From: Scenedesmus sp. ARA3
Lineage: Eukaryota > Chlorophyta > Chlorophyceae > Sphaeropleales > Scenedesmaceae
DNA length: 64,000 nucleotides
Assembly (NCBI GenBank): GCA_004335835.1
Contig: RWJK01001508.1
Location: 27,943 to 91,942 of the forward strand
Direction: 5' to 3'
The notes under the pieces were generated by a model that was given only the letters and a program-made list of their open reading frames with translations, did not search any database and had not been told where the DNA came from. Made by a program: the position numbers and the translations under genes. Shown here piece by piece: positions 22,300 to 64,000 of the stretch (within the stretch, counting starts at the first letter, position 1; each line of letters starts with the position of its first letter).

Positions 22300-25200
22300 G
22301 CAGCCATCAAGCTCTGCACCCCATGCTGCTGGCTGGCGTGGGCCGCCTTTGCCTGCGCTGCTGCTGCTGCTGCTGCTGCTGGCTGGGGTCCCACCATGCC
22401 GTGCTTGTGTGCGGTGATCTGCAGAGGCACCACCACCTGCTGCCTGCTATGCACGTCTACTGCTTGCAGGCAGCGCGGCTCGGCAGCTAGCACGTACAGA
22501 TGCCGGAACGCCTGCAGGCACGCGTACACACAGCCGGCAAAGGTCTGAGTCACTGATCCAAACAACCCACACCCACGCACCGCAGAATAGTCAAAGACAC
22601 TCTTACTCCCAGATGGACTTACTGTTGCAAACACGTGCATGATTGAATTCATTCCGCACCATTCTTACCGCAGGTGGCAGCACTGGTCACCGGCGCTGTG
22701 ACGCCGCCGCGTCGCACACCACCGCAACAGCTTACTGCACAACAAGCACAGCAATTCTTCGAACCCCATCCCAAACGATCAGAACACATCATAAATGTAG
22801 ATCTCACCTGCAGGTGGCAGCGCTGGTCTGTGGGGCTATGAGGCCACACCGGATACAGTGCGATCAGCACACCCAACTGCACAACAAGCACATCAAACCT
22901 TCCCGTCCGTATAAACCATCACCATTCTCACCTGCAGGTGGCAGCGCTGGTCTGTGGGGCTGTTAGGCCACACCGGGTGCACCGCAACCACACACCCAAC
23001 TGTACAACAAGCACAGCAAACCATAAATGTATACAAAAAGCCTCGCCACTTGCAGCTGCAGGTGGCAGCGCTGGTCTTTTGGGCCGTTGAGCCACCACAC
23101 TTTAGACCAACTCAATGCGCAACAAGCACAGCAAGTCTTCACACCCAAATGATTCCAACTTGATCGCAAATCTCACCTGCAGGTGACAGCGCTGGTCTGT
23201 GGGGCTATTAGGCCACACTGGGTACAGCACGATCAGCAGCGCCGCAACTGCCTCGTTGCTGCTGCTGCTGCTGGCGCGCAACACAACAAAAAAACACCTT
23301 ACTGCACAAAAAGCATAGCAAACCTCCACATACAAATGCATGTCATCATCCACCCATCTCACCTGCAGGTGACAGCGCTGGTCTGTGGGGCTATTAGGCC
23401 ACACCGGGTACAGTGCGATCAGCAGCGCCGCGACCGCCTCGTTGCTGCTGCTGATGCTGGCGCGCCCCGCACTCAGGAACAGCAGCCCTGCAGCCAGGCT
23501 GGTGGCAAGGTGGTGGCCGTAGCTGACCTGCATTTGATGCAAAATATTATGTTTGTTTGCAGTTGTTGTGTCGGTGTCAGCAGCGGAGATATAGGTGTGC
23601 AGAGGTTATCAAGGCCAGCACGCCAGCAGCCAGGCTGGTGGCGAGGTGGTGGCCGTAGCTCACCTGCAAACAATTATAACAGTCTTTTGTAAGCAACGCC
23701 TGTTGGCATTCCATCATTAGCTGACATGTATCTAGAGTTTGTTTGCAGCTGATTGCAGTTATAGTGGTGGTGTTAGCACGAGAGATAGATAGGTGAAGGT
23801 CAGAAGAGAGCACACAGCTCTTGTGCGCAGGGTGACATGATGGCTTGCGCTGTTGAACATAGAATGGACAATGCCGGGTGTGTGCAATGCTGCTGCAAGT
23901 TTGATGGCGGTCCCTGCCAGTCACGCACACAATGCTGCACATCCTTCGTGCAGCAAGCTGCTGGCAATTGCAACAGCCACAGCTGACTAGCTACAGAACG
24001 ACACATGCTAATGACAATCACACAGGCTGCAGACAGGACCGCTGGCCTATCATCATGGTTCAACATCAAATCATTGATCAAGTGGCTCACCTGGCCGCTG
24101 CCAACACATGCGAATGACACTCACACATACTGCAGACGGGGCAGCTGCCACATATTCATGGTTTCATGATTGATCAAATGCTGTCATCAGGTGTCTCACC
24201 TGGCCGCAGCCCACCCCAGGGCCCGACAGCAGTGCAGCAATGCCGCCTGGCGTCTGGCCCTCAGCGCCTGTCGCGCGCAGCGGCCCAGCGCTGCGGCGGC
24301 TGAGCACCTGCGGGCAGCATTGCAATCGTTGTGATTGCTGTTATTGACGTATTGGCATGTGTTTGTTTGTTACAATGCTGGAGGGTGATACGGGCCATGC
24401 ACTTGTCTCCTGCAAGTGCGGCACCGCTGTTGCTACAAGTACAACCATGCAGCCATGCAGCCAGCAGCAGCAGCGCACCTGAATCAGCCGAAAGGTAGGC
24501 AGGTGGCCGCTCCCTGCCATGACCAGCGCCAGCGCCAGCAGCACCACACTGATGCAGTTCTCAATCACACCCTTATCCAGCTGCCCAACTGACCCAGCAG
24601 CAGGAGCCACCGCAATGCCAACGCCGGCCCCATTTGCTGCAGCAGCGGCAGCAGCAGCAGCCGCCGCAGGCGCCACAGACTGCTCGTTGGGCCCGCCGGG
24701 AGCCCGCCGCTTTGCGTGCAGCAGCTGCAGTAGGTGGTGCCGCAGCAGAGCCTCTGCGCCTGCATTGCAAGTTCCTGCAAAGCGCAATCCGATCGCAAAG
24801 CAGGCGCCAGCTAGTGCGTGCACATGCGCTAGGCCCACGGCGCCCCAATCTACTGCTGATGCGGCATGCCCTGCAGGGCCCCTGAGGCTGCCGCTGCCGC
24901 TGCGTGCTGCTGCTGCTGCTGCAGGTGTGCTGCCGGGTGTTGCTGCTGCTGCTGCTGCTGCTGCTGGAGGTGCCAGCATTGCATCCAGTATCTTGAGCAG
25001 AGGCTGGTCTAGCAGCGGCGGCAGCTGTGCACTGATCCACTCCTGCAGCAGCATACATAACACGTTGTCAGACACTTGCATGCAGTAGGCATGTGCACGA
25101 GATGATGGCAAGACCACAATTGCCATGCGTCGGCTCGTTGCAGTCAGCATCTTGCCGACTATCAGCCACACTCAGCCTTTTCCCACATGTGACAACAAAA

Positions 25201-26019
25201 TGCCAATCATCACCAGCATGATCCGCTTTACATGATTTGCCAACAGCAGATAGTAACAGATCAACTCACCTGTGTTGCGCTGATGCCCTCCCACAGCACC
25301 AGGGCCCTGCCCAGCACCATCAGCAGCTGCACCCTTTCCCTCAAACATGTTACAAACAGTTGTCACTAACGTGTTATGTACCAAGGTCCAGCAACAGTAA
25401 CAGATCAGCCCACCTGTGTTGCGCTGATGCCCTCCCACAGCACCAGGGCCTTGCCCAGCACCATCAGCAGCTGCACCCTCTTCTCTTAAACATGTTATGA
25501 CCATTTGTCACTGACATGTTATGTAACCAACGCGATCAAGCAGCACCAACAAGTTGTTCTTGCCCACCTGTGTTGCGCTGATGCCCTCCCACAGCACCAG
25601 GGCCTTGCCCAGCACCATCAGCAGCACCAGTGAGGGCCGCATGTGGTCCAGTGCATACACACTGTCAGGCACCTGCATGCATTGGAGTGGCACACGGTCC
25701 GAGTTGTACGATTCACAGGCAAGGCTGAGTTTTCAAGGTGATACTGTGCGGCTCGCTTGGCCCATCAGTTGCAGGTGCATCTTTTAAGCCACATGCAGTT
25801 GCAGCCGCCTGTGGCCAGAGCCAAGCTTCCTCAACATCGCTTTCAACTTCACAGCCGGCTGCCGTGAACTTCACAGCCGGCGTACACTGAACTTCACCTT
25901 GAAGCGTGCTGCCACGTCAGCGTCACCCGTCTTCAGGTACATCATCATCAGCGCCATGGCAGCAGCAGGGCCAGTGACAGCGGTGTTGCCGCCCTGACCT
26001 TCAAGCACCACCTGCAGCA

Positions 26020-26055
<36 letters not shown>

Positions 26056-26118
26056 TAACGCCATCAGCAGCAGGGCCAGTGACAGCAGTGTTGCCGCCCT
26101 GACCCTCAAGCACCACCT

Positions 26119-26154
<36 letters not shown>

Positions 26155-27133: not shown

Positions 27134-27170
<37 letters not shown>

Positions 27171-29966
27171 GGTGACTTTGTCTTGCTGGCTGATGCAGTG
27201 TGCAGAGTTCAATAGCTGGCGTATTGAACTGCTGCAAGTGAGACTGTAGGGCTGCAAGGTAGCGTTATGCTTTTGGTGAGGCTTGGAAGAGGCCATGCTG
27301 CATGTAGTGGCATGACAGCATTGCTCAATGCTGCGCCAATGTGTTCGCAGACGCGTAGACCAAAGGAGCTAACAGCATTCACACTTGCACAATGCCACTA
27401 CAATCTGTCCTGTCACTCGCAGACCCTAACACTATCTTCATCACATAAACACACCTGCGCATCAGCTTATCCTCCAAGCGTAGATCAGCCAGCCAGACAC
27501 ACTGGCAAACTTACTGTGCACTTTGCCATGTCTTTTCTTTGCATTTTTTTCACATAAGAATCACAGATAACCCGCACCTCAGCGTATCTTCCAGGTGCAA
27601 ATCAGCCAGCCCAGGCGCGCTCCTGCCCTGCCCCAGGCAGATCAGCCCCAGCCCCGTGTGACTATTGCACACTCCAACATACCCACACCTCAGTTTCATT
27701 TTCCAAATGCAGATCCGCCAGCGCAGCCAGACCCGCACACTCCAACTGACACTTTGCAAATGTCAGCATCTATCTTCAGTAGCCTATCACACAACCAATG
27801 CATCCTGCGCACCTCAGCTTATCCTCCAGGTGTAAATCAGCCAGCCCAGGCGCACTCCTGCCCTGCCCAAGGCAGATCAGCCCCAGCCCAAAGCCAGCCG
27901 CAAGCGCATACCCCTCCCTGTCCTGCATCACACACATCAGCGATGACAGGCTCGCGCCAAGCCCTGAACCGCCGCCGGCCTCGGCGCCTAAACCGCCGCC
28001 GCCGCCAGTGAGGCTGGGGTTTACGCCCGGGGTTCTGGTAATCTCCTCGAGCATGATCTCTGACATGAGCCGGTGGCAGGAGCCCTGGTACAGCAGGCCC
28101 AGGCCCAGCAGCGAGGCGGCCTGCAACAGAAAAAAACAAAAAGAAGCCGCAAAAAGCGAATTTGCTGGAGTGTCCAGGAGCGCAAAACACAATAAAGTTG
28201 CATTGAAGCGCTACGTTGACACTTGTGGTAACGAATTGATGTTAATGTTTTTTTAGGGTGGTGGGGTGGTGTTGAGCCGGTGGCAGGAGCCCTGGTAGAG
28301 CAGGCCTAGGCCCAGCAGCGAGGCGGCCTGCAGACAGAAAGGGGATGAACACAAACGAGTCACTTTAGTGACGGAGAGTTGAGGAGCACAGAATGCCATT
28401 TCTATCAATAGCTCTATCTCCGGCAGCAGCTGGAGTGGCGTGCCACAGACTTGTGCGACATCATCCAGTCGCTGCAGAACACAGCATGCTGCGCCACACA
28501 ACACAGCACACAGCACAAGCAAAGTCGTATCCTTGCAGAAAGCTGTCATAGTCAGCCACCGTACCTGCACCACAACGCACCACAATGCACATACACAAAC
28601 ACACACCTACAGCCATCAGACCATAAACAAACAGCTCATCACCTGCACGTGCGGCGACAGCTCTATTTCCGGGAAGCAGCTCGGGTGGCGTGCGGGCAGG
28701 TGCAGCAGCAGCATGCGCGCCACGGTGGTGTCTGCCGCCCCTCTGCTGCAGGCCGCCATGCCCAGCAGCACGCCGATGGTGGTGGGCTCGTGCTGATCAG
28801 ACAGGTACCTGCAGGGAATGCAGGCGGCCATAACACAATGGGAGTGGAGTGCGGCAAATCTAAAACAAATGGAGCTACAACACCGAAGTAAAGCCTATTT
28901 AAAACTCCAGTCATGCAAGTGGCAGAGCAACAGTACTTGCGTGCTCTTTGTACAACGTCTGTGCACTGCGTGCTGCTGCCGCTGCTGCCACGGCTCACCT
29001 GTACAGGTCAGTCCATGAGAGCCGGTCCAGGTGCCCCGTCAGCCCCAGCGCCAGCAGCACCCCGGCATGTGCATAATTAGGCACCACCGGCTTGCTGTGC
29101 GGCAGCCAGGCATCTGCCAAGCTGTCTGCACTGCTGCTGCTGCTGCTGCCAGGCTCAGGCCTGACAGCCCCTTCAGCAGCAGCACCAGCCACTGATCCAG
29201 CAAGGCTAGGAGTAGCCCCTTCAGGAGAGTTAGGGTTGGGGGTTTGGGATCCGTGCTGGGGTGCGGCCACGCCAGCTTGCTGCTGCTGCTGCTGCTTGAG
29301 CCGGTGTCGCCTGCGAGGGGCGATCTTGATGCCAGCCGCCACTCCGTTGTGAAACTCACACCAGGCCGTGACGTCAGCTGCCGCGCCGCCGCCTGTGAGG
29401 TAAGCACAGGTTGGAAGAAGGCATCTGCTGTAAAAACAAGATTACCTCAGGTGCTCCTGGCACTCAGAACTCTACATGAGGCCGTCATGTCCACAGCCGC
29501 GACCTTGCGTGAAGTTGTATGCAACTGTCAGCATAAAGTGCTCCCAAGGCAGCGGCTGTGCTAGCGTTAGCAGACACGCCTCAACAGCCACCTGCACTCT
29601 TGCACTGCCGTGAAAACTTAAACACACCAAACACATCCTTCCGAATCAGACACACCAAACACACCCTTCGGGAATAGACACACCAAACACACACTTGCAA
29701 TTTTGCCTACCTGGTGCGGGCTGTGCATTGGTGAGGTCCAGGTTCACCAGCACCCTGCCGCCCGCTCCCCCCTCAGGCCCCGGCCCAGGCACCACCCCAC
29801 TCAGGCACAGCAGCGGCACCCCCAGCTGCTCCCCAGGCAGCGGCTGAGACAGCCCAAGCGTGAAGGCACCACGGCCCAGTGGCAGCGCCATGGTGCGCAG
29901 TGCGGAGGAGAGCAATGCTGCCTGCTGCTTGGCGGGAAGATCTGGATCACTGTCTGGCCCAGGGAC
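20595..29966 (-). CDS. APC1: APC1 exons 15-25: proteasome/cyclosome repeat region and C terminus
   Basis: Exon 15 begins VPGPDSDPDLPAKQQ and contains RTMALPLGRGAFTL; exon 16 has WCEFHNGVAAGIKIAP. Exons 17-24 carry the PC-repeat ring: TTIGVLLGMAACSRGAAD, ASLLGLGLLYQGSCHRL, AAGFGLGLICLGQGRSA, MMMYLKTGDADVAARFK, LDHMRPSLVLLMVLGKAL, ACFAIGLRFAGTCNAG, and HHLATSLAAGLLFLSAGRAS. Exon 25 (22511-20595) reads RHLYVLAAEPRCLQAVDV and then PRYWPIQVA, LYVDDPSGVKSLL and VLPWYLQLYSLGHR, ending VARQHGGT and TAG. PC repeats form a closed helical toroid in APC1 and proteasome Rpn1/Rpn2 (family knowledge). Confidence 0.92.
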
Positions 29967-30987
29967 CTGCAGGGGACAACAATGTGGATGCATGGCACAA
30001 GCAGAGCAGGGATCACATGTTGAGTAGTGGCAGCGCCATCGTGCGCAGCGCGGAGGAGAGCAGAGCGGCTTGCTGCTTGGCGGGAAGGTCTGGGTTGCTG
30101 TCTGGCCCTGGGACCTGCAGGCAAGGGGACAGGCAGAAAAATGTGTAAAGGCTTTAGAAACGAGCCACAACACAACAAGGGTCCAGGTGTTGTAATAGCG
30201 CCATGGTGCGCAGCGCGGAGGAGAGCAGGGCGGCTTGATGTTTGACGGAAGGATCCAGGTCACTGTCTGGCCCAGGGACCTGCGGGCAAGCAAACAGGCA
30301 GAAAGATGTAAAAAGTTCGGAAACGTGCCGCAGCACAACAAGGGTCCAGGTGTTACAATGATAATAACGCTGCCTGTTGTTAGGCAGGAAGATCCGGGTC
30401 ACTGTCTGGCCCAGGGACCTGCAGAAAGATGGGGAGTATGGTCATATGCGGCAGAAACAGAGCAGAATCAGAAAGGGTGAAGGCACCACGGCCCAGTGGC
30501 AGCGCCATGGTGCGCAGTGCAGGGGGAGAGCAGGGCGGCTTGCTGCTTGGCGGGAAGATCCGGGTCACTGTCTGGCCCAGGGACCTGCACATCACGGGTC
30601 ATCACGATCATCACGGATTGATGGATCAGTCGCACAGCATCGGTTGAGACTATACTCCTTGATTTACACAAATCACAAAGGAATTGTCCGGTTGGTGCAG
30701 CACAATGATAGCTCAGCAATATTTGACAAGCGATGCCAGGGTGGAACGTGCATGCCGCCCCACTCATCGTGAGCACCACGGGCATGTTTGTTCCCAGCAG
30801 GCTCTGCACCTCAGCACCACACTGCTGCCACTGCCACTGCTGCTGCTGCTGCTGCTGCCACATCTTTATTGCCAACAGCTGCTGCTGTCCCACTCATCGT
30901 GAGCACCACGGGCATGTTTGTTTCCAGCAGGCTCTGCACCTCAGCACCACACTGCTGCTGCTGCTGCTGCTACATCTTTAATGCCAA

Positions 30988-31018
<31 letters not shown>

Positions 31019-31474
31019 CTTGTTAACGCCAACTGCTGCTGCCACCCCACTCACCGTGAGCACCACGGGCATGTTTGTTTCCAGCAGGCTCTGCACCTCA
31101 GCACCACACTGCTGCTGCTGCTGCTGCTGCTACATCTTTTATGCCAACTGCTGCTGCTGCTGCTCCCTTGTTAACGCCAACTGCTGCTGCCACCCCACTC
31201 ACCGTGAGCACCACAGGCATGTTTGTACCCAGCAGGCTCTGCACCTCGGCCAGCCGCTCATCACGGCCAAAGCGCAGCGAGGAGATGCCGCCTGCAAGGT
31301 AATGAACACAGCAAGGCAAACACACAGCGAAAGAGACTTGAACCACGGCGCTGTATTCTGTTGTAGAAGCACAGTTGCTTCTTTCCCGCGCGTGATGCAA
31401 AAGCATGCAAGTTCCAGGTGTGGCCAACGTTTGGGCAGGAACTCAGAACGAAGCTGACCATCATGGTTCAAACT

Positions 31475-31507: not shown

Positions 31508-32020
31508 CCAGCAGCAGCAGCAGCAGCACTTCGCGCCTCACCTGCCACGCCTTCCATTCCGTCAATTGGCAGCCCCAGCTCAGCCCAGTCCACGTCCATG
31601 AGCTGGAAGACCCCATCAATCACCTAAGCTATGATATCACGCAATACAAAGCAGCAAGTGCTGGGCCAATCATACCAAACAAACGCAGCAGCAGCAGCAG
31701 CAGCAGCAGCAGCACCATCCACCCACCCGCCACGCCTTCCATCAATTGGTAGCCCCAGCTCCCCTGTCACCCCCACGATGATGTCAACTAAGAAGGCACT
31801 TGATGGGCGAAGCATACTAATCAAACTCAGCAGCAGCACAGAAGTGCCTTTCACGCACCTGCTACGCCTTCCATGCCGTCGATTGGCAGCCCAAGCTCTC
31901 CAGTCACCCCAGCATTGCTGCTCTGACCAATGCCGGCGCCAAATGCGCCGCTGCTGCCAGCAGCAGCAGCGGCAGCCGCCGCAGCAGCAGAACCCCTCAG
32001 GCCCCTACCCCCTCTCCTTG

Positions 32021-32305: not shown

Positions 32306-35300
32306 AGTCGTTGCTGGCCAGTGTTGCTGCCACATCCTCCCTGCCAATGAGCGCATACGCCATGATGGGCCAACCTGCAACAAATGACAGCGAACATCAT
32401 TGGAGCTCCGTGCTATTTTGATGGTACAGACTGCCTCAACACACTTGACAATTACCGCTGAGTTTAGTGCCCTTTCAGCGGTTCATCAGCAGTTCACAAA
32501 AAGTTGACAAAGCGCAATCCCTCACCTGCGGGCGGGTTGGTCCTGCACCTTGCAGCAGCCTCTTTGAGTGGCAGCGCAACTCCCAGCGGCAGGCCATCCA
32601 GCGCCAGCACATCCCAGCCCTGCTGCACCAGCAGCAGCACCAGCCGGTGACTGCCCAGCAGCAGCAGGTGCTCCAGCTCCGCTGCCAATGCATTGTTTGG
32701 ATCTGCTGCACTGTTGCCGGACTGTTTAGCTCCAACGCCGCCCGGGGACTGGTTTTGTGTGCTGCTGCTGCTGCTGCTGCCTAAGAGGCCAAAGCCGGCA
32801 AGCGGCTGCAGCAGCAAACTCCCCTGCTGCTGCTGCTGCTGGTGGCCGCTGCTCACTGCTGCTGCCACTGCTGCTGCGCAGGCGCGTGTGCAGCTTGACA
32901 GCAGGCGGTACGCCTCCAGCAGCTGACATGAGCGCAGCACGCAGCTGCTGCCTTTACTGGCCAGCCATGGAACATAACGCTGCTGCTGCTGCTGTTCAGC
33001 GGCGCCTGACAGCAGCGGGGACAAGCAGCGCAGAATGTCTCCTGGCGGCTGCTGCAGCTGCATAAGCTCAACGCTGCTGCTGCTGCTGCTGCCAGCACCA
33101 TCCAACTGCTGCTGCTGCTGCTGACCCTTCTGCGAGTGCCACTGCAGGGAGGCCGCTGCAGTAGCAGCAGCAGCAGCAGCAGCAGCAGGCTTGCCAGCAA
33201 GGCCGGCAGCAGCTTCCAGCAGCTGCTGTGCTGCAGCTTGCAGTCCAGAGGGCGAAGCATCTCTTTCATAGTGCTCCTGGTATGCAGCAGCACCAAGCAG
33301 TTTTGACAGCAGCCACAGCAGCGGGCCCAGCAGCTGCAGCAGCTGCCGGCGCAGCTTGTAGAGCTTACAGTCCTCGTACACGGAATGCAGCGCCAGCAGC
33401 ACTGAAGCCAGCTCCTGCCTGTGCTGCTGCTGCTGCTGGGGCGAGCCAGCAAGGCCTTGCCAGCCAAACACAGCATCTTCAAATGCTGCTGCTGATGATG
33501 TGGTGTCAACGGCCTGCTGCTGCTGCTGCTGCTTCTGCTGCAGGAATGGTAGCGCCTTGAGGAGCTGCTTGCTCTCTTGACTGCCCAGCAGCAGCAGCAG
33601 TAGCATCTGCTGCATGCAAGCTTGCTGCTTGCGTGTCTGCTGCCCTGCTGGTGTGCTGCAGCTGGCCGAGCCTACTGGCTAAGCGTGTGGTGCTTACTGA
33701 CATGGGGGTACCACTCATAGACATAGGTGTGCCGGATGCTGCCCTGCCACCCCTTGCACCCGCTGCTGCTGCTGCTGCTGCTGCAGATGCTGAGTCGACT
33801 GACATAGACATGGACATATCTGAGTAAGCAGATCCCGGCGTCTGCTGCTGCTGCTGCTGCCAGCCCGTCGGTAGCGCAAAAGGCATCGTGGCAGCAGCGC
33901 CTGCTGCTGCCGCCCGTGCAGCAGCACCTGTCTCAGGTGTAACCATGTCCATGTCATCACTGCCACCTCCAGTTGCTGCTGCTGCTGTTACAGGACTGCC
34001 AAACTGCCCTGCTGCTGCTGCCTGTGCAAGCTGATTGTCTTGCTGAGCTGTTGGAGGTGTGACCATGTCCATATCATCACTGGCACCCCCTGTTACTGCT
34101 GCTGCCGTCACAGGACTGCCAAACTGCCCTGCTGCTGCTGCCTGTGCAAGCTGGCTACCACGCTGAGCTGTTGCAGGTGTCACCATGTCCATGTCTTCAC
34201 TGAGACCCTCATCACCTGCTGCTGCTGCTGCTGCTGCTGGTGTTTCTGCCGCTCCGGCTGTTACAGGGCTCCCAAACTGCCCTGCTGCTGCTGCCAGCGG
34301 GGTTGTCTGCCCTAGCTGCTGCTGCTGCTGCTGCTGCTTGAGCTGCGAGCTGTGCACCTGATCCAGTGTGCCTGGTTTTATGGCCCAGGCAATCAGCACG
34401 GAGGCGATAGCACGCCACTCGCTGCCGAGGTGGCCGCAGCAGGCACCTGCACAGGATGAGACATGCACATGATGACACGTGCAGATGACAAGAAAACGCA
34501 CATGATGACACATGCAGCTGACAACACATGCACATGATGACACACGCACATGATGACACATGCAGCTGACAACACATGCACACGGTGACACATGCAGCTG
34601 ACAACACATGCACATGATGACACATGCAGATGACAACACATGCACATGATGACACATGCAGATGACAACACACGCACATGATGACACATGCAGCTGACAA
34701 CACATGCACAGGATGACACATGCCGAGGTGGCCGCAGCAGGCACCTGCAGGGGGCAGCAAACAAGATGTGACACATGCAGATGCGAAGTGCATTCCATTG
34801 CCAGGCATTTGACTTCAAGAGCCACTGAACTAGTGAATGCACACATCAGGCGCGACCAACCATACGACCAAATAGCCTTTGACACATCACAAACGACATG
34901 GAATAGGCCCTATCTGCAACCTTGGACTCGCCCGGCTGCAGCAGGCAGGCCGCCAGCAGCTGCAGGTGCTACTGCTGCCCCAGCGCCTCATGCAGCGCGA
35001 TTTTATTAACGGCACATACTAATGCCTGTGGGCGAAGCATGCACTTGCTGTTCTGGTCACGTGTCCAGCCACCTTGCGGCATGATGCACACAACAAAGAC
35101 ACAAGCAGGCGTAGTCTGTCACACCACCATAACGTAGAAACCGCTTCTGAATACACTCAAATGCGCTCGCCTGGCTGCAGCAGGCAGGGCCCCAGCAGCT
35201 GCAGGTGCCGCTGCTGCCCCAGCGCCTCATGCAGCGCCATAGTGAAAACGGCACATACTCATGCCTGTGGGCAAAGCATGCACTTGCTGCCTGGTCAGTG

Positions 35301-35881
35301 TCCCAGCCACCTTGCGGCATGAGGCACTAGAGTACGAGATACGCAGGCGTAGTCAATCACATCACTATACAGCCCAACAAACTTGTACCCAGGTGCACCC
35401 ACCTGGCTGCAGCAGGCAGGCCCCCAGCAGCTGCAGGTGCCGCGTCTGCCGCAGCGCCTCATGCAGCGCCAGAACACAAGGCATCACTCGTACTGAAACT
35501 GCTGCGCATGGCATGCAGTCGCTGCCCAGCCACCTTGCGACACGAAGCACAACCAAGACACAAGCAGGCGCGGTCTATCACACCACCATACAGTGGAAAC
35601 CATTTCTGAGTGTACTCAAATGCGCTCACCTGGCTGCAGCAGGCAGGCCGCCAGCAGCTGCAGGTGCCGCTGCTGCCCCAGCGCCTCATGCAGCGCCTGC
35701 AGCACCTGCCCCGGCAGTGACGGCAGCCACGACAGGCCCAGCCGCACACGCACAGAGGCACCTCCAGCAGCAGTACGGTTTGCTGCAGAGGCAGCAGCAG
35801 CTGGTGCTGCTGCTGCTGCCAGGTGCAGCTCAACGCTGAACCTGTCGCCAGCTGCGCAGCTCAGGCCGGTGATGCTGACAC

Positions 35882-35924
<43 letters not shown>

Positions 35925-36966
35925 GTCGGGCGTCTGCTCAGCCTGCAGTGAACTGCCGCCTCCTTTCACAACAGAGCCTGCAGTCCAAGTCACACAGCAT
36001 GTGCAATATGTCATGCTGGGGTGCTCGTAAGCAAGCCCTGTTAGCACACGCTGTGCCTGATTGCAGGGCCAGTACACATCCTGCAGTGAGCTGGGACCTC
36101 CTCTCAGAACAGAGCCTGTTGCACAAGTCACACAGCAAGTGCAGTATGTCAATCTGGGGTGCTCGTCAGCCAACCCTGTTAGGAGAGCTGCGCCGATTGC
36201 AAGGCCAGTACACATCCTGCAGTGAGCTGGGACCTCCTCTCACAACAGAGCCTGCAGCACAAGTCACACAGCAAGTGCAGTATGTCAATCTGGGATGCTC
36301 GGAAGCCAGGCCTGTTAGGAGCGCTGCGCCTGATTGCAAGACCAGTACACGTCCTGCAGTGAGCTGGGACCTCCTCTCACAACAGAGCCTGCAGCACAAG
36401 TCACACAGCACGTTCAAAGGCTTTTAAGGCAACCCTGTTAGGAGCGCTGCGCCTAATTGCAAGACCAGACACAGCCTGCAGTGAGCTGGGGGCTCCCCTC
36501 ACAACAGATCCTGCAGCACGCGTTGACCAACACAAATGCTGGATGACAGCAGCCCAGGTGGTAAAGATCGACTGCACAGCAATGCGTCTGCAGGTGAAGG
36601 CAATGCTTTGCTGTGCGCCAAATTGACTAGCCGTCGTGCAAAAATGATATTCATTCTGTTATAAAAGTAACACACCAACCCACCTGGTGACAGCAGCATG
36701 TCATCCGACTCATCCCCTCCCGGAGAGCCATCCGACATAGACCAACACCCCAAACTGCCCGCAGTGCCCGGCCTAACACCTGCTGCTGCTGCTGCTGCTG
36801 AGCCCCTGAGGCCCTGCCCCTGCTTTCCTGCTGCTGCTGCTGCTGCTGAGGCAAGGCGCTGCAAGCAGCTGCTGGGCAGTGTGAGCCCCACGCTGGTCAG
36901 GGGGGTGCAGCCGCGGTGCAGCAGCAGCTGCCCAGAGGGATGCAGCACCAGCAGGTCCAGCAGCTC

Positions 36967-37005: not shown

Positions 37006-38242
37006 AGGCAGGCTGAAGCCGGTGGCGACTGGCACTGCTGCAAGCGCTGCAATGCTGAATGCTGGCTTGACTACAACATGGCTGCTGCCGCTGATCCTGC
37101 TGCTGCTGCTGCTGTCAGCCCTGCACGACACCGATTGAGTGGGACAATGCAAACACGAACAAGCAGCAGTTGGTGTAATCGGCTGCTCTTGTTACGTGCT
37201 ACCCGCTCACTCCGACACATAACCTTGCAACAGCCGCACAACCCAACCAACGCAAGCAAACTAACCGTACTTGCAATGGTTTTGTTGCCCGCTGAACCAC
37301 TCACTCTGCCAGCCGGAAGGCCACCAGCCCCGGACTGCTGCCGCCTTTGCACAGCACGCACAGCAGCGGCACGCCATCCGCATCCGTTGCCAGGCAGGCC
37401 TCTGCAGGTGTGGCCCCGCCTGTCAGCTGCTGGCAGCAGGCCAGCTTGAAGAGCACGGGAGGGTCGGGGCCTGGCAGCAGCAGCGCCTGCTGCGCCTGCG
37501 TGGTGTTGCTGCGGCAGCAAGGGAGCAACACGGCAGCATGCAGGAGGCGTGTGTGCTGGAGCTATTGGCGCATGGGGTGTAGGCTTGTAGAACACCTGAA
37601 GCAGGGCCGCAGCACACCCAACGCACCCAGGCCGCCCGGCTCAGGCGCTTGGCTGCTGCCAGCAGCCCTGCACGCATTACTGCCCACAAACGCCCACACA
37701 ACAGCCTGCACAGCCTGCATCATGTTTTGCGGTGTTCACTCGCTTTTCTCTGGTTTCAGACCATGTGTTCACCCTGTTGTCGCTTATACCATCTGAGATG
37801 GTGCCAGGACCCACATGTCACTGCCCTCTCTCAAAGACACTGCTGCGGCTTCACCTGCAGCAGGGCCGCAGCACCCCAAGCGCCCCCAGGCCCTTGGTAT
37901 ATCACCTGATAATTACATTATTTAATTATATTTATATATAATATTATACATGTACAAACAGCCCCACCTGAAGCAGGGCCGCAGCACACCCAGAGCCCCC
38001 AAGCCGCCCGTCCAGGGTGCCTGGCTGCTGCCAGCAGCCTTGCATCAAGCCTACGCACAACAACCTTCTTAAAGCCGTTGCAACTGCTATGCCGCCAACC
38101 TCATCAACAGGCCCCACCTGAAGCAGGGGCGCAGCACTCCCAGCGCCCCCAGCCCCCCTGCCCAGGGTGCCTGGCTGCTCTGCTGAGGGGTGGGGCTGAA
38201 GATGGAGGCGGGCAGGCAGCCTTGGGGGGTGCGCAGCGCAGA

Positions 38243-38277
<35 letters not shown>

Positions 38278-49809: not shown

Positions 49810-51409
49810 TGAGTAAGCAGCAGCAGCAGCATAAGTAAGCAGCAGCAGCAGCATAAGTAAGCAGCCCGCTGGGACATCGCCATGTGAGCAATAGCAGGCA
49901 GCATGATGCTTTTGCACTCTGGACATTGCCTCCCATGCACAACTTGTACCAACAGAACCGATGAAACATACAGCAATCGCTATGCATGATGCACAATGCG
50001 CGGCAGCTGCAGGTCACCATAGTTGATGTCCACCTTCTCGTGCCTGTCATGTCTTGATCAGCATCGCTGTTACCCATGCCTCCCGCTGAGTGGCACAGCC
50101 TGAGCATGCAAAGATTCACACCATAACAGGCTGTGACAACGCACCGTAGTTGAGGTTCACTTTGTCGTTCCTGTCAGCGTCCTTGTAGGCCATGCCGCCT
50201 GCTGAGCCATCTGTGACCTTGCCGCTTAGCTGCAGCTGCCCAGGCTCATGGCTGAGGGCGTTGCGCATCGGCTGGATCTGCAGCAGCCCACTGCAGCAGC
50301 AGCAGCAGCAGTGACTGAGCACGGCATGCCAGGATGCTCGGTGCATTGCGCATGGGCTGGAGTTGCAGCAGCCCACTGCAGCAGCAGCAGCAGCAGCAGC
50401 CAGCCGGATCTCATTTGAAGACAGCTCAGGGCTGCAACGTACCATCAATTCAAAACAGGCCTTGCAGGTATATGAGCAGTTCAACCTTCTACACGTTGTA
50501 CACAAGACTGCACAAGCTCGGCGCTGCTGCACTCAGCTGTTGCACATTCTGCAAATGTCTACGTGACATCTGGCGGTTGCTCCAAGCTGCCGACACAGCC
50601 TGTGTGTGTGATGTCTTGCAGGGGAGTGCTCAGATCATGTGCGCTCACTTAATGATCATGTTGGTGCACAGCAGCTGGTACATGCGCGCCTGAGGCTCAA
50701 AGGCATACACTGCGCCAGTGGGGCCGGCAGCTGCTGCAAAGAAGATCGTGAAGTCGCCCATGTTAGCACCTGGCAGCAGCAGCAGCGATTAGTGAGGTAG
50801 GATCAACAATGTGTAGCTGCCTGGTAGTACCATTTTGGTGGGTATGGATAGGATAGTTACTTGTGGGGCCTGCAGGCACCATCTCAGACGGTAACCGTAT
50901 GCCCCTGCCTCACCTGCGTCCACCACGGTGCTGCCTGGCCTCACAGCATCGAGGATGCTACTGGCACCCACCGTCTGCGCTGCCGCTGCTGCTAGCCACC
51001 TGTTGCAGCCACATACGCCGGCTCACCTGCGTCCACCACCACGCTGCCCTGCCTCACGTCATCCAGCAGCAATGACCGCATCCCCGCCTTACGTCATCCA
51101 GCAGCAATGACCGCATCCCCGCCTCACGTCATCCAGCAGCAATGACCGCATCCCCAGCATCAGAAAATCAATGCCTGACTCTTGCAACTGGAGAAAGCTG
51201 CGTTACCTGAGTTACTTAGTTTGGTCATGAAACAGCTGGGGGCGCCCACCTGCATCAATCACAGTGCTGCCTGGCCGCACTGCATCCAGCAGCGGCCCCA
51301 CTGGCAACAGGTCCGCCTGGAAGGGCGCCCACTACCACATTGCTATGGTCAGGCAAACTCACCACCACCACACGCTATGGCCAGGCAAACTCACCAAACC
51401 ACTGCCTAC

Positions 51410-51471
<62 letters not shown>

Positions 51472-52410
51472 TGCCGGGCTCAGGCCCACCTGCGTCAATC
51501 ACGGTGCTGCCTGGCCGCACAGCGTCCAGCAGCGGCCCCAGCAGCTCAGCCTGAAAGGGCGTCTTGGTTCTGAGGATGTGCTTGCCCACAAACTCGCTGC
51601 AGCAGCACACGAGTACATGAAGTATCTGGTGTAATGGCAAGACAGAGTGCACTTGACAGGTGGTTGTGCTGGTCACATACTAATGTATATGTGCTTTCAT
51701 CATTGTATCACTTGCAATGTGAGTGGGTTGCTTGCAGCAGCTGGTGCTGGGGGAGGCCCAGCAGCATGAGCACAGTTCACGGCTTTGGATGTGCTATGCA
51801 TGACAGGCGCAACAGCAGCTGTGTTTGTTTTTTTGCTGCTCACATCTGCATTGCTTACGAACGCATGGTCACAAGAAAACCCCTTTTCAAGGTGAAACGC
51901 AGACTTGCCTTCTTCCACACTTGACGTCTGATACTTATTCCTCCGCAGCCGCTTGCAGGCTGAAAAAGAACAGAGTGCTGCTGCTCAACTGTCCTGCCGA
52001 TATTGATGAATTGCTGCTTGTGATGCAGCTGCTACTGCTGCAATGCTGTGCATGCGGCATGTGCCAACTCACTCATTTGCCAGTGCAACCACTGTCAGCT
52101 TGTGTCCTTTAAAATCCACAGGCACAGACTGCACCAGCCCCTTGTTGATGTTCTGCACGGCAGCTTCTGTTCTATGCGGGGTGGCAGCAGCAGCTGCCTG
52201 CTTATGCCTGCGGTGCCGTTGCCCAGCTGTCCCGTTGTGCGCACGTGCTGCTGTGCTAGCCAGCAGGCTGGCTATGCGTGCGAGCTCTGAGGCTAGGGCA
52301 ATTATCGAGCTAGGACGTTCTTTTACCATTGTTACTGCATCTTCTTGTGCGTGCAGCAGAGGGCTGCCGAACAAGAAGCAGAGCAGCACGCACGCGAAGG
52401 TCCTCATCAT
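48611..52410 (-). CDS. FkbM-family methyltransferase, gene A (intact)
   Basis: Seven exons: 52410-52073, 51596-51490, 50769-50649, 50290-50145, 49651-49566, 49092-49037, 48860-48611. They sum to 1,104 nt, giving 367 residues. The start MMRTFACVLLCFLFGSPLLH looks like a signal peptide (a second ATG follows at once). The SAM-binding fold is clear: GKHILRTKTPFQAELL, then VIDAGANMGDF and VYAFEPQARM, with NMIIKNGL. A later part reads TLDSLNLTDVSLIKVDIQGA and GAQETIK, matching the family's VD..G.E...L.GA motif. The C terminus is basic (GRRRMLALPPRRR). FkbM enzymes are SAM-dependent, mostly O-methyltransferases, often acting on sugars; the secretory location is inferred. Its broken sister lies directly upstream. 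Confidence 0.87.
49440..49475 (-). repeat. Copy of the 3' edge of FkbM-A exon 5
   Basis: LQTDVHVIK followed by GTGCG repeats the exon end SLIK/GTGCGGC at 49566. About 120 bp separates the two donors. Confidence 0.7.
49655..49806. repeat. CAG tract with 50-base assembly gap
   Basis: CAG units run from 49655 to 49701 and resume at 49752 after exactly 50 N (49702-49751). On the sense strand it is a CTG tract ending against the acceptor of FkbM-A exon 5 (49651). The true repeat length is unknown and is probably longer than read length allowed. Confidence 0.95.
50340..50400 (-). repeat. Copy of the 5' edge of FkbM-A exon 4 with CTG tract
   Basis: CTGCTGCAG/TGGGCTGCTGCAACTCCAG repeats the acceptor and start of the exon at 50290. 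It encodes GLLQLQPMRNA. The upstream copy carries its own short CTG tract. Confidence 0.82.
50905..51330 (-). repeat. Three copies of the 3' edge of FkbM-A exon 2
   Basis: After exon 51596-51490, copies of VRPGS-V-V-DAG with their GT donors end near 51250, 51027 and 50914. The codons upstream differ between copies. A 33-bp subunit (CCTCACGTCATCCAGCAGCA) is itself repeated three times at about 51052-51140. Confidence 0.85.
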
Positions 52411-54600: not shown

Positions 54601-54615
54601 ATCCATTACTACTGC

Positions 54616-54835
54616 CTCCTGCAATTGGGGGGCACAGCAGGAACACGCCGGCGGCTGCCGCCGTGTAGCATCCTGCGCCGGCCGCCAGCCGTTGCTTTGC
54701 CGGGCGGCGTGCCGATGTTATCGCTGCCGTACAGCTGCACGTCGTACCCCAGGCCCATGAGGGAGGCCTCCATGCTGAAGCCTTCAGCAAGCTGCGGCAG
54801 CTGCAGCTCTGCTTTGACTGCATCTATCCATCTGT
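54616..54835 (-). repeat. Extra copy of FkbM-B last exon
   Basis: Downstream of the gene B stop, a second version of exon 7 reads DAVKAELQLPQ, then LYGSDNIGTPPGKATAGGRR and NCRRQ with a TAG stop. It shares the Arg-rich tail with the copy at 55128-54864 but has different middle codons (MEASLMGLGYDVQ). It could be an alternative last exon or a remnant. Confidence 0.8.
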
Positions 54836-55229
54836 TGGTATTGTACTAGGCCGCTGCACTCGGTCACTGCCGCCTGCGATTGGGCGGCACAGCCAGGATG
54901 CGCCGGCGGCTGCCGCCCTGAAGCATCCTGCGCCGGCCGCCGGCCGTTGCATTGGCGGGCGGCGTGCCGATGTTGTCGCTGCCGAAGACCTGCGTCGTGT
55001 AGCCGAGGCTCTTCAGGAATGTGTCCACGTTGAAGTCTTTGACATGCTGCGGCAGCTGCAGCTCTGCGTCGACTGCTGTGGCCATGCCGGCTTCTACTGA
55101 CTCGTACGCGACCACTGGCAGGTTGCGCCTGTAACACGGTGAGGCAGGCAGGCAGGCAGGGAGGGGACCGGATGAAGTATGTTTAGATGCTGTTGTTCAG
55201 GCGTTACACGCGCTGTATGACATGCATGT

Positions 55230-57849: not shown

Positions 57850-58010
57850 GCGGGCCCACCTGCGTCCACCACCACGCTGCCCGGCCTTACTTTGTCCACC
57901 AGCTGCCCCAGCAGCTGCGCTCAAACTCACAGCAACAGCAGGTGCGCTCAGTGCCAGGCTCACCTGCACCCACGACCATGCTGCCCGGCCTCGCAGCATC
58001 AAGGCCGCTA
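57850..58010 (-). repeat. Two copies of the 3' edge of FkbM-B exon 2
   Basis: VRPGSVVVDAG-type ends with GT donors recur near 57860-57905 and 57962-58010, after the intact exon 58199-58093. Confidence 0.85.
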
Positions 58011-58199
58011 TGCACCCACTGCCTACGCTGCCACCGCTGCTGCTGCTAGCCCGTCTAGGTGTCGCATGATGCAGCCACATACGTTGCCTCACCTGCGTCC
58101 ACCACCACGCTGCCTGGCCTCACTTTGTCCATGAGCGGGCCCAGCAGGTCGGCCTGCCAGGGCGTGCGCGTCCTCAGGATGTGAGAGCCCACGTACTCG

Positions 58200-58445
58200 C
58201 TGCAGCACAGTGCAGCGCAGTGTATTGCAAAGCAGCGCAAGACAGCATGCATGGCGGTTGACAAAGATGTTGCTTGTTGCATGCGCGTGCTCAACGTGTC
58301 GAAGCCCACGTACTCGCTGCAGCGCAGTGCAAAGCTAAGCAGCGCAAGACAGCATGCATGGCGGTTGACAAAGATGTTGCTTGCTGTAGCGCGTGCTCAA
58401 AGTGTGGAAGCCCACATACTCGCCGCAACACACTGCAACGCAGCT
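58200..58445 (-). repeat. Two copies of the 5' edge of FkbM-B exon 2
   Basis: An approximately 115-bp unit ending in a TGCAG acceptor and the codons for EYVG is repeated twice upstream (about 58305 and 58425). The second has a mutated acceptor (TGCGGC for TGCAGC). Confidence 0.85.
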
Positions 58446-59179
58446 AAGAGCACAGTTCATTATGGGGGTTGGTCAAAGGTGCTTGCAGGACAAGGACTGA
58501 CTCCACAGCTGCCCTATTGCAAGGGTGGCTGCAAATTTGTATGTGTTGGCAGAGGATGCAGCAAAGCAGCTGCAAGCAGCTGCTGTTTCTGCAAGCTGCT
58601 GCAGCATCACATCAGGAAGCAGTGCCATAACTGCCCCTGCAATGACAGCTGACGCAGCAAAACTTGCTGCTGGTGATCACATGTACTGCTTTTTACCCGA
58701 CATCAGTTACACATAGGCAGCAGACCTGTTGGCGCTGCAGGCGCCACACAGCAGTTGCATGGGCACAAGCCCAAGCTAGTAGACTATGTATTTAGAAAAA
58801 TTATGCTTGTTTGACCAAGCTAGCATGCTCCTGCAAGCTCCAGCACTGCACTCACTCATGTGACAGCGCAACAACAGTCAAGTTGTGCCCTTAGAACTCC
58901 ACAGGCACAGACTGCACCAGCCCCTTGTTGATGTTCTGCACGGCAGCTTCCTGTGTTTGCGGTACAGCAGCGGCTGGATGGGGCCTCCGATGCCTGATGT
59001 GACCTCCTAAGCTGCCGTTGTGTGCTGCTGCTCCAGCTAGTCTGCTGGCGATGTGTGCCAGCTCCGCGGCTAGCGAGACTATAGCAACTTTTGTGGTTTG
59101 CTGCTCATCATTGATCTGTTCCTGAGCGTGCACGGCAGCCCCGGGCCCGGCTAGCAGCAGACATGGAAATGCCCTCATC

Positions 59180-60006: not shown

Positions 60007-62943
60007 CTACTTCTGCCGCCGCTCCGTCGTCACGGCCGGCCCATTGCTCAGCCGAGCATGCTGCTTGCTCCTCGCACTCGCAGGGTTGTAAGGGTGCAGC
60101 ATCTTATGCTGCAGCCACTGCATGAGTGTGGTGAACGCATCATCAACTGCTGCCTGCGGCTGCCACACCCGCATTTCCAGCAATGAGGAAACCTTAGCCG
60201 CATGCTCTCTGTCTTCCTTGCTCGCCTCCTCTGCATCAGTCTGCGCTGCTGCTGCTGTTGCTGCTGCCGTGGCTGCTTTGCGTCGCCGCCCCATATGACT
60301 CAGCGCATGCTGCTGCTGTAGCTGCTGCTGCGCCAGCTCATCCTGAATGCGCGGGCTACTGCGCATGTTCTCTGCCACCAATGCAGCAGCCTGCTCCCGC
60401 ACCATCGGGTGACTCAGCCACGCCATGCGCTGCCACCACTTGGCAATACTCCTCCTAAACCCTGCCTCCTGCGCCTCGCTTATACCGCCGAGGATACTCG
60501 GCAGGTTCGGCAGCTCCTCGGGCCGCACCTTCAGCACGGCGGCCGACAGCCGCAGCACCGCACTGAACGGCTGCGCGATCGCGCCCATGTCGCCGCCGGA
60601 AACCACGACGGGGATGCAGCCGTGCAGCACAGCGTCCTCAAACAGCCCCGGCCAGCCGTCGCGAGGCACAACGAGGCAAAACCGGCTGCGCGACAACAGC
60701 ACCGACGCGTCGCCCTCCAGCTCCGCCTCGCTGCCAATCCATATGCGGTGCTGCTCCTTCCAGCGGCCGTCCTTTGCGAGCTTCGCGAGGCTCTGCCGCA
60801 GCCCGCCGCTGAAGGCGGGCGGGCGCGCGTCGCCTAAGTCAGTGCGCAGCAGCGCGAGGATGTCGCGGCTGCGGGCGTCGCCGCCCATAAAGGGGCTCGC
60901 GTGGAAGCGCGGCGGGGGCTTGAAGGCAGGCAGCACGAGGTCCTTGCCTGGCGTGTAGCAGGGGTGGGCGCCGATGGCTGCTTGGTAGCCGCGAGGCATG
61001 GCTGGATCATCCTTGTCATCGCCCTTGTTGAAGTTGTACTCCCACCTGCAGTAGCAGAAGTTACAACACAATATGCAGAGGTGGAATGTTGTTGAGCCAG
61101 ATGGCATGGCTGGGTTGTCCTTGTCATCGCCCTTGTTGAAGTTGTACTCCCACCTGCAGGAGAAGAATTACGAAGAAAGCAATATAATGCCTTTGCTTTT
61201 GGTATGGCAGCGCTTGGGGGCTTTGATGCAAAGGACGGCATGGATGGGTCGTCCTTGTCATCGCCCTTGTTGAAGTTATACTCCCACCTGCAGGAGGGGA
61301 CAATTTTGTCAGATGCTGTTGTTGACCACGGCGCAGCCAGCCATGGCACCGCTAACCACAGCCGCCACATACTTGACAGCAGCTGCAACAAGGGGAAGCA
61401 AGCTGAGATCAAACCTCACCTGCTGGTGCTGCTGTTGACCATGCTGCCGCCTTTCCCAGCCACCGCAGGCAGCCGCCCCCACTGGCTCAAGATGATGGAG
61501 GCGTTGTAGATCTCCTGGGGGGCCCAGCAGGCGCCCTCACCACAACTTCAGCCAAAATAAAGCTATACCACAAAGAGAAAAGCTTGTTCACATACACTAC
61601 AGCATCACACAGAAAAGCTGAAGCAAGGTATCTCACCTGCTGGTGCTGCTGTTGACCATCCCGCCGCCACCATCCCTCTTGTCATCACCGCCAGCCGCCG
61701 CAGGCAGCCGCCCCCACTGGCTCAAGATAATGGAGGCGTTGTAGATCTCCTGCGGGGCCCAGCAGGCGCCCTCGTCATGCGAGAAGAGCCAGATGTGGTT
61801 GGCGCCGCGCGTGGCGTTCCAGTAGGGGTACGCGGTTCGAACCCAGCTCAGCGCGTCGAGGTACATGGCGACGCCTTGTTTGACCATGGAGCGGCTACAG
61901 TGCAAGAGGGCAGGGACATCCGGTGATATGTGGATGTGTTTGACGCTGTATGATCAGCTTGATCAGTAAACAAACTTTGGCATGATGTGTAACATGATGT
62001 ATACAGTTGATGCAGTGCGTGCAGGTATGTTGCCACACCTTGCTTCACAATGGAGCGGCTGCAACATTCGGACAAACAACAGAGCGACGGAAGGAATCAC
62101 AACTTCAGGGATTGCAGGCGCGTTGCGGTAGACACCGCATGGTGATATGCTGCAGAGGCGAGTGGGCGGCATGTTTTGCTGCTGATGAAGTGCACACCCT
62201 GGCAAGCAGAGCAGCGTAGCCTCCAGGAGTTGTTGCCACCTGCGTGATTGTGCTGTATTAATGTCTCATGAGTTCTTGTGCTGCACACGCCACGCTGCTT
62301 GCACAGTACAAACTATAGATGTCAGGGTCAACAGTTGCTCCGTGCATTGCACATCCGCCTCACCTCTGCACGCCCCACCAGGGTGCGTCAGCCCAGCCCG
62401 CCACTGCTTCCATGAAGCAGGAGGCATACACAGGCACGTAGAAGAAGTCGGCCTCTTCTGGATCTAGCGTTCTGTGAGGGCTCTGTAGCAAGAGCTCGTG
62501 CAGGTGGCTCTCCAGGGGATAGCGCCACGCACTGGAACCTGCAGACAAAGCACAGCAGCCGCGCACAAGCATCAGTACCAGCAGCACCTCATCAGCACGA
62601 CACCATTGGTGTTACACCAAGGTCAACACAGTCGCAAAAATGTGGGCGGGCGTGGGTGGCTGCCAGTTTAAGTGTCTCAAGTGGGTTGCTGCGCGCGCTG
62701 GCGCCTGTGGAAGAGCAGGGGTGGTGGGTGGTTGTTTGGTATGCAGTAGTCAAAACAACATGCCCTGTCACGCCAACAACACAGTCGACGGCTCTGCTCA
62801 ACAGCACTGGCTCCTGCTGCTACTGGTGGGTGTTGTGACTCACTCTCCGTGGTGGTGTACAGCGAGAAGTTTGACTTGCTGAAGATGCGCCAGGTGCAGG
62901 TCTGCTTGCTGGGCCGGTACTGCAGCAGGCGGCCCACAAACCT

Positions 62944-62999
<56 letters not shown>

Positions 63000-64000
63000 T
63001 CAACTGAAGCCGTTGAGCACGTCGCATGTGCAATCATTTGGCAGGTGATGCAGCTGGCGGCCTGACCAACCTGCAGCTACAGCACAACAGAATCTTGGCT
63101 CTATTGGATGCCATGCAGCGCAATGCATGCCTCTGCACTTTTGCGGTGGTAGCTGCTCATGCTCACCTGCTGAGCATGTCATACACGAAGATGGTCGCCG
63201 CGCCTTGCTGGCACCTGCCCCAGCCCCCGCTCCACCAAACAGCAACAACACAAGACCCCAAACAAACCACAATCACAACCTCACCTGCTAGGCATGTCGT
63301 ACACAAAGATCCGCGGTCTTCTGGCTTTCCCTGTCGGCACCTTTCCCAGCCCCCGCTCCACCAGGTGCCGCCACTCCAAACACAACACCAAGAACTTACA
63401 CTTTTGATCAATTGCAACCTCACCTGCTGGGCATGTCGTAGACAAAGATGCGTGGCCGCCGCGCCTTGCCAGCCGGCACCTCACCCACCCCCTGCTCCAC
63501 CAGGTGCCGCAGCAGCACCCCATCAGCCACAAAACAAATGATAATGTGCTGTGCTGCTCCCTCGCCTGATTTGCCAGCCGGGAATCCCTCAAGCGGGCCG
63601 GCAAACAGCTACACCAGACACCCTCAATCACGACTGCCTGCAACCCAAGTCTCACGCTCACCTGCTAGGCATGTCGTACACAAAGATGCGTGGCCTCCGT
63701 GCCTTGCCAGCCGGCACCTCACCCAGCCCCTGCTCCACCAGGTGCCGCAGCAGCACTGCGATTCCCCTTCCAGAACAAAGGTCATACAGCGCTGGCGTGA
63801 TTTGACAGCCGGCATTTCCTCGCGCCCTACAACGCAGCACACTCTCTATACCACACACCAACACACACACCAACACGCAACTGCTCTTCCTCACCTGCTA
63901 GGCATGTCATACACAAAGATCCGCGGCCTTCTGGCTCTCCCAGCCGGCACCTGCCCCAGCCCCCGCTCCACCAGGTGCCGCAGCAGCACCCCATCAGCCT
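60007..64000 (-). CDS. Exostosin-family (GT47) glycosyltransferase, 5' end off the window
   Basis: Visible exons: >64000-63895, 62941-62844, 62538-62364, 61894-61637 and 61045-60007, all in phase. The first reads RRPRIFVYDMPSR, the usual opening of the GT47 domain. Then come CTWRIFSKSNFSLYTTTE, LESHLHELLLQSPHRTLDPE, EADFFYVPVYASCF, YPYWNATRGANHIW, FSHDEGACWAPQEIY and, in the last exon, SRFCLVVPRDGWPGLFEDAV and HGCIPVVVSGG, the nucleotide-sugar binding end. These enzymes build cell-wall or surface polysaccharides in the Golgi (family knowledge). A Gln/Ala-rich tail of about 130 residues follows the domain. Any membrane anchor would lie to the right of the window. The first-listed exon has several donor-bearing copies downstream. 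Confidence 0.9.
61095..61300 (-). repeat. Two copies of the 5' edge of the last exostosin exon
   Basis: CTGCAG/GTGGGAGTAC.. encoding WEYNFNKGDDKDDP recurs near 61155 and 61289, upstream of the true acceptor at 61045. The following codons (AMPSG, SMPS) differ. Confidence 0.9.
61425..61550 (-). repeat. Copy of the 3' edge of the exostosin exon 61894-61637
   Basis: EGACWAPQEIYNASIILSQW-like sequence through NSSTSR with a GTGAGG donor is repeated about 210 bp downstream of the true exon end, with a short deletion. Confidence 0.85.
62000..62062 (-). repeat. Copy of the 5' edge of the exostosin exon 61894-61637
   Basis: TTGCAG/CCGCTCCATTGTGAAGCA repeats the acceptor and RS-V-KQGVA-YL, with different codons later. 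Confidence 0.85.
62945..62998. repeat. (CAG)18 against an exostosin 3' splice site
   Basis: On the sense strand this is (CTG)18 ending CTGCAG/GTTTGTGG at the exon that starts at 62941. Confidence 0.95.
63160..63765 (-). repeat. Four copies of the 3' edge of the exostosin VYDMPSR exon
   Basis: Copies with donors end near 63662, 63425, 63292 and 63167. The first three keep GKARRPRIFVYDMPSR and GTGAG. The fourth is frameshifted and altered (VYDMLSR). Each unit extends up to about 95 bp back into the exon, to LLRHLVEQGLG. Confidence 0.92.

Follow-up and report, generated by a model that had tools for sequence, protein, structure and literature searches.

The stretch analysed here (the window) comprises 64,000 nucleotides of Scenedesmus sp. 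ARA3 (assembly GCA_004335835.1, contig RWJK01001508.1), and the introns of several of its genes, among them APC1, contain arrays of partial copies of the adjacent exon edge. These copies are polarised: those lying upstream of an exon carry the acceptor site and the first codons, those lying downstream carry the last codons and the donor site. Their likely source, on which we are firm, is the tandem duplication of units of about 90–270 bp that span a coding border. Moreover, the pattern of change in the exon halves of the copies is that of coding sequence, which is not true of the intron halves. The window is the terminal part of a 91,942-base contig in an assembly of 87.27 Mb and 1,567 contigs. 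Since the predicted APC1 product agrees with the Tetradesmus obliquus protein P0001 at 1,689 of 1,711 aligned positions when gaps are disregarded, the host is, judged by this sequence, T. obliquus or a very close relative.

Polarity of the exon-edge copies

Four genes were scored, APC1 and an exostosin gene inside the window and OLA1 (locus L005) and PAN2 (locus L003) outside it. The models of APC1, OLA1 and PAN2 derive from spliced alignment of relatives' proteins; exostosin was read by hand and scored for exons 2–5 only. The introns on either side of every exon were searched for matches to it at E ≤ 1e-3, low-complexity matches were removed, and an exon edge was called touched when a match came within 6 nt of it (8 nt in PAN2). 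Pfam labelled pieces of APC1 and of exostosin. The names OLA1 and PAN2 come from analyses in this work, FkbM, kinesin and zinc finger are labels of the initial annotation adopted as given, and CDPK and sulfotransferase are names from our own reading alone.

The comparison returned 72 exon-like matches in flanking introns. In 67 of them the copy has the polarity described above and the intact exon lies on the side predicted by the geometry of a border-crossing duplication, four touch no exon edge and one is contrary. The copies are thus not placed at random relative to exon ends, and the regularity claimed in the initial annotation for four genes of the window is confirmed and extends beyond them. 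For APC1 that annotation had counted about 39 copies (roughly 23 donor-side and 16 acceptor-side); the scoring retains 33 (17 donor-side downstream, 14 acceptor-side upstream, one contrary and one edge-free), and some visible copies fall below the cut-off. All 11 copies beside the nine exons of OLA1 have the expected polarity, as do 21 of the 24 PAN2 matches, the other three being edge-free and none contrary; the L003 locus was set around a pattern match and hence is no random pick. A further 18 or so copies had been attributed to FkbM-A, FkbM-B and exostosin. The same pattern is found there, with four of four matches scored as expected in exostosin, and by eye in the two FkbM genes, which stay outside the scored counts.

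Spliced alignment of P0001 gave 25 APC1 exons, and two doubtful places of this public model were merged in ours. One is its “exon 8” (35533–35403), which is the single contrary match and apparently duplicates the donor side of the real exon 35977–35630; the reading frame of that exon stays open to 35630. The other, 34446–32526, seems to form, in essence, a single coding segment, interrupted if at all by one short intron of unplaced position. The arrays of the window are as follows.

37596..38243, minus strand: APC1 exon 38243–38118 with two scored donor-side copies (38029–37968, 37657–37596) and a shorter third (37892–37853); spacers not above chance
34932..36510, minus strand: APC1 exon 35977–35630 with four acceptor-side copies upstream (36510–36077) and three donor-side copies downstream (35470–34932); scored
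33934..34230, minus strand: APC1 exon-internal repeat with a period of 120 bp, or 40 codons, in frame; repeat analysis
31542..31953, minus strand: APC1 exon 31953–31859 with two donor-side copies; 10 synonymous and 0 nonsynonymous differences
30768..31291, minus strand: APC1 exon 31291–31203 with three donor-side copies; scored
29711..30584, minus strand: APC1 exon 29966–29711 with four upstream acceptor-side copies; 31 synonymous and 8 nonsynonymous differences
27461..28327, minus strand: APC1 exon 28120–27813 with one acceptor-side copy (28327–28273) and two donor-side copies (27654–27461); scored
25898..26405, minus strand: APC1 exon 26011–25898 with four acceptor-side copies; scored
25270..25672, minus strand: APC1 exon 25672–25568 with two donor-side copies, identical at 58/58 and 57/58 bases; scored
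22808..23663, minus strand: APC1 exon 23527–23363 with one acceptor-side copy (23663–23616) and four scored donor-side copies (23279–22808)
50912..51550, minus strand: FkbM-A exon end with three donor-side copies; by eye
57852..58339, minus strand: FkbM-B exon with an acceptor-side copy near 58316 and two donor-side copies; by eye
54611..55076, minus strand: FkbM-B coding end and its copy (54821–54611), located past the stop codon; sequence reading
61045..61287, minus strand: exostosin, two acceptor-side copies (61287–61237, 61153–61103) ahead of the exon starting at 61045; scored
61420..62058, minus strand: exostosin exon 61894–61637 with one acceptor-side copy (62058–62013) and one donor-side copy (61538–61420); scored
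63153..64000, minus strand: exostosin donor-side array, truncated by the contig end; by eye

Local repeats cover a fraction of 0.370 of positions 22601–39500, 0.113 of 48601–59200 and 0.295 of 59201–64000. Cover is 0.000 over 39501–48600 and over 1–22600, and the latter interval includes the kinesin and zinc-finger genes, in which the initial annotation had rightly seen no obvious copies. The contig terminates within the exostosin array, as if the array had halted assembly. Repeats of other kinds are also present: tandem repeats with periods of 16 and 32 bp in an APC1 intron (34444–34723) and of 35 bp at 17265–17553, none of them exon-edge copies, and a 107-bp tandem duplication (42171–42350) at the 3' end of a 1,432-residue open reading frame.

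Probable tandem duplication across coding borders

Tandem duplication is favoured as the source because the repeats are exclusively direct and the intron parts of the units are homologous in most families. The window holds 62 direct and no inverted local repeat pairs, and in eight of ten APC1 families the spacers from one copy to the next align better than a shuffled null, so that the duplicated unit contains exon and intron sequence, head to tail. The polarity itself needs no special process, since a tandem duplication across a border yields it by geometry. Nor need the border be a splice site, because the copy of the FkbM-B coding end sits beyond a stop codon. Duplication at the DNA level, filtered by selection, fits the homology of the spacers, the local confinement of the copies, the copy past the stop codon and the in-frame repeat of 40 codons in APC1. 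In the process that we envisage, short segments (with a period of about 90–270 bp in the measured arrays) would duplicate in tandem in this genome, and duplications would persist in genes where they leave the message unchanged, that is, where the unit spans the border of an exon or the end of the coding region, or stays in frame within an exon. From a unit placed over an acceptor, the acceptor and the first codons would come to lie upstream of the exon that stays intact; from one over a donor, the last codons and the donor would come to lie downstream of it; and repeated duplication would build arrays and longer introns. Duplication by paired nicks and patch repair is known in plants.

The proposal that such duplication lengthens introns while one intact exon is kept is supported by collapsing the arrays, whose lengths were assigned by hand for this purpose. 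In APC1, collapse reduces the intron total from 10,629 to 5,725 bases and the median intron from 522 to 250 bp; in OLA1 the total falls from 4,386 to 2,328 bases. The totals shrink by 46–47 %.

Two results speak against this account or narrow it. At the APC1 exons ending at 38118 and 27813, the spacers of the families align no better than expected by chance. Furthermore, when units are placed at random in array-free APC1 and OLA1, 55–59 % of those of the two tolerated kinds already cross a border, so that much of the concentration at borders is explained by the shortness of the introns, and the data do not establish that borders are preferred to the interior of introns. By eye, APC1 and OLA1 showed no long-period repeat confined to an intron, although such repeats are harder to detect because they have no conserved half.

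Direct repeats are also common elsewhere in the genome. Ten nuclear loci picked by position contain 69 direct and no inverted pairs, which cover 11.2 % of 94,140 bases and exceed 2 % in seven of the ten loci. Among 15 loci outside the window, 12 have local repeat pairs, 140 in total and all direct; the load is uneven, since three (L004, L008 and L015) have none. A test free of gene models found donor motifs at the expected block end 30 times in the window against 1.8 expected, and 12 times in 12 other loci against 3.3. Acceptor motifs were not enriched at their expected end (38 vs 40.2 in the window, 61 vs 59.0 in the other loci), but this test is uninformative because CAG is too common here. 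Sampling of the genome by pattern and by promoter-like statistics yielded nothing useful. That the process is active, as had been suggested, receives some support from a 116-bp unit in L003 repeated at 100 % identity over 178 bp, which suggests recent activity. Of the further claim that it is lineage-wide, what is shown covers only this genome beyond the window and, at the protein level, the T. obliquus OEZ85 assembly.

A few observations on these loci may be added. In L003 a run of N near 6250–6295 adjoins the array with the identical units; L012, with 24 % G+C and four direct local repeat pairs, is possibly an organelle contig; and an open frame in L008 (8067–8597) resembles, by reading alone, a reverse transcriptase of the non-LTR (non-long-terminal-repeat) type.

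Coding imprint and use of the copies

The coding signature of the copies was unforeseen in the initial annotation. It was measured on 67 copies from APC1, OLA1 and PAN2, grouped in 33 families, with the edge-free APC1 match left out. The ratio of nonsynonymous to synonymous rates (dN/dS) is 0.17 between real exon and copy (bootstrap 0.11–0.26) and 0.31 between copies (0.23–0.44), 0.7 % of bootstraps reaching 0.5 in the latter case. Shifted frames give 1.55–2.64 and intron-derived parts 0.87–1.07, and the excess of third-position changes persists outside CpG and after matching of the mutation spectrum. Gap openings per 100 aligned bases amount to 0.22 in exon halves and 4.78 in intron halves (12 families); for this comparison, as for the intron-derived control, families with alignable spacers were chosen. 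Ungapped identity drops from 0.95 to 0.41 within 12 nt of the donor junction, a measure that indels also lower. Detection on total similarity should not by itself skew the split between codon positions.

These data bear directly on the simplest alternative, in which tandem duplication alone takes place and the dead copies then decay neutrally. It agrees with the presence of stops, the loss of donors and the unbiased changes of some families. However, simulated dead copies emitted serially from a constrained exon have a dN/dS of 0.54 (real-copy) and 0.86 (copy-copy), and the observed values were reached in none of 200 simulations; with the roughly 20-fold rarity of gap openings in exon relative to intron halves of the same copies and the fall in identity at the donor junction, this makes neutral decay quite improbable, the controls for base composition, CpG, codon frame and intron derivation having been applied. 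The cleanest of the small tests, on changes private to the exon-nearest copy, gave 11 synonymous and 9 nonsynonymous, a modest excess only.

Translation of the copies through alternative transcripts, which would place the exon halves under direct selection at the protein level, might account for the low copy-copy ratio. The acceptor is indeed mostly retained, with AG in 30 of 32 acceptor-side copies; GT is kept in 22 of 29 donor-side copies (six PAN2 copies of the 67 were omitted from these counts: three edge-free ones, 3155–3232, which has lost its donor, 6300–6357, which adjoins N, and 4966–5009; with 3155–3232 the donor count becomes 22/30). A potato gene is described as employing such an upstream copy (PMC4974935), and P0045, the genome-derived OEZ85 model of OLA1, includes one in-frame copy segment of 19 residues (L005 7579–7635). 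On the other hand, a second splice site is not found beyond chance, whether as YAG near the inner end of donor-side copies (17/29 vs 18.4 in the null; in frame 10 vs 7.5) or as GTRNG in acceptor-side copies (1/32 vs 5.5). Rejoining at matching AGGT would be possible in 17 of 64 copies (three edge-free PAN2 copies omitted), with a donor-like GT in only one, and donors and stops look unconstrained. P0046, with 429 residues, equals the nine OLA1 exons and contains no copy; it is probably derived from complementary DNA (cDNA), since its contig of at most 1,695 bases is too short for the 5.7-kb gene. For lack of a second splice site beyond chance and in view of this transcript-like protein, direct translation is doubtful, and we rate it as unlikely. 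GT kept in 22/29 only and six in-frame stops in 1,407 codons are what would be expected if the copies are disused at present. The same counts leave both whole-exon (cassette) duplication and intron gain of the AGGT type unsupported.

The suggestion that the copies create rival splice sites therefore stands in part: the sites are kept and gene prediction was apparently misled by them, but the transcript-like OLA1 protein uses none. The public OEZ85 models P0001 and P0045 both contain segments that align with copies found here and, judged from these alignments, appear to include copy-derived exons. The copies are thus no artefact of the present assembly alone, a comparison with an independent assembly made at the protein level only. 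Some acceptor-side copies start CAG/GTGAG (L005 8416 and 8662; window 23663), where real exons start GCGAG or GTCAG, and these may be recursive splice points.

An RNA- or splicing-based origin (reverse splicing, mobile introns or cDNA) would agree with the sharp change at the splice junction. However, the duplicated units include intron sequence, one FkbM-B copy spans a stop codon and not a splice site, and the OLA1 copies are confined to their own gene: compared with the whole genome, P0046 matches only that gene and two diverged paralogue loci (G000 C764 and C825, with OLA1/YchF paralogue exons at 47–68 % identity). We give this origin almost no credence. Under second-order selection, copies would recombine into the working exon and damaged copies would be weeded from the population, which would yield coding constraint without translation and agrees with the patterns of indels and dN/dS. 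Mosaic sites in two families resembled the outcome of recombination, with 27 of 57 pairs incompatible against 3 % in the null, a sign that a harsher null does not sustain. The exchange rate allowed by divergence is, by our own estimate, too low unless diversity is very high. Silent diversity is high in some eukaryotes. Selection by such weeding appears improbable as well. A second haplotype in the assembly was also considered and rejected, as APC1 sequence of 4.9 kb matched the assembly over its full length at one place and elsewhere in short parts only.

As direct use is hard to see and simple exchange fails in simulation, the remaining options are diverged functional edges, weeding by exchange and unseen isoforms. 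Of these we favour the first, in which the copies would not be translated as such. Their sequences would derive, by descent or by exchange, from functional exon edges, and these edges would have diverged while coding, whether in other alleles or lineages or as earlier functional edges. The copies would have been disused only during the later part of their history. In OLA1, two readable residues of the copies agree with the OEZ85 exon and differ from this genome's own, so that these copies are older than the changes concerned. We hold this origin of the imprint to be plausible, somewhat short of probable. Together with tandem duplication it makes up the explanation that we think best, and as a whole rather probable.

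Several findings sit badly with it. Eight families show no coding bias (A7a, A7d, A18a, A19d, O4d, O5d, P8a and P9d), A7d having one synonymous and eight nonsynonymous differences. Simulated exchange within a single lineage gives a dN/dS of 0.56 and 0.73 at a synonymous rate (dS) of 0.15–0.19 and never falls below 0.5, so that simple gene conversion does not reach the observed value and was discarded. The recombination signal of the mosaic sites has P = 0.10 and 0.15 under a harsher null. Finally, the proportion of synonymous differences (pS) between copies reaches 0.4, which would require very diverged alleles.

Relation to known systems and significance

Single border-crossing duplications are already known. 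In the account of the potato RNA-dependent RNA polymerase (RdRp) gene (PMC4974935), a tandem duplication over an intron end and exon start likewise let the acceptor be inherited, but that single event created a new, used intron, whereas here arrays occur at both exon edges of several genes, with a coding imprint and no copy in P0046. Intron gain from AGGT segments in the Rogers model, as outlined in PMC3443670 and PMC4974935, shares an internal tandem duplication handled by splicing; here the units span existing borders, and AGGT with a donor-like GT occurs in the single copy mentioned above. Dual-specific AGGT splice sites, in the text available of PMC10809524, similarly repeat splice signals in tandem arrays, but delimit whole coding repeats, not half-exons with one splice site. 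Tandem repeats concentrated near intron–exon junctions have been reported in the green algae Chlamydomonas and Volvox, where the available portion of PMC3887541 describes repeat density and short motifs, not exon-edge copies. Introners (PMC9860276) are also repeated intronic sequences, but spread between genes, whereas here the OLA1 copies stay beside their own exon; identity with introners was dismissed on the whole-genome matches of the OLA1 protein, the one protein compared in this way. A search of the open-licence literature found no case of several genes with arrays on both sides of their exons and a coding imprint on the copies, which is no proof that they are unpublished.

The exon-edge arrays offer a visible mechanism for long introns, the mean intron measuring 462 bp in T. 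obliquus and 230–302 bp in three other Sphaeropleales according to Table 1 of PMC5966456. They also call for caution with the gene models of such genomes, which can contain copy-derived exons. That sequences seemingly outside the message should bear a coding imprint is unexpected; it suggests exchange, isoforms that have escaped notice or alleles of unusual divergence. It is conceivable, though in our view rather unlikely, that the arrays serve as a lasting store of half-exons still competent to code, which selection at the protein level would maintain either directly or via exchange with the working exon. If so, the introns of this lineage would hold spare exon edges, even though these lie outside the mature message.

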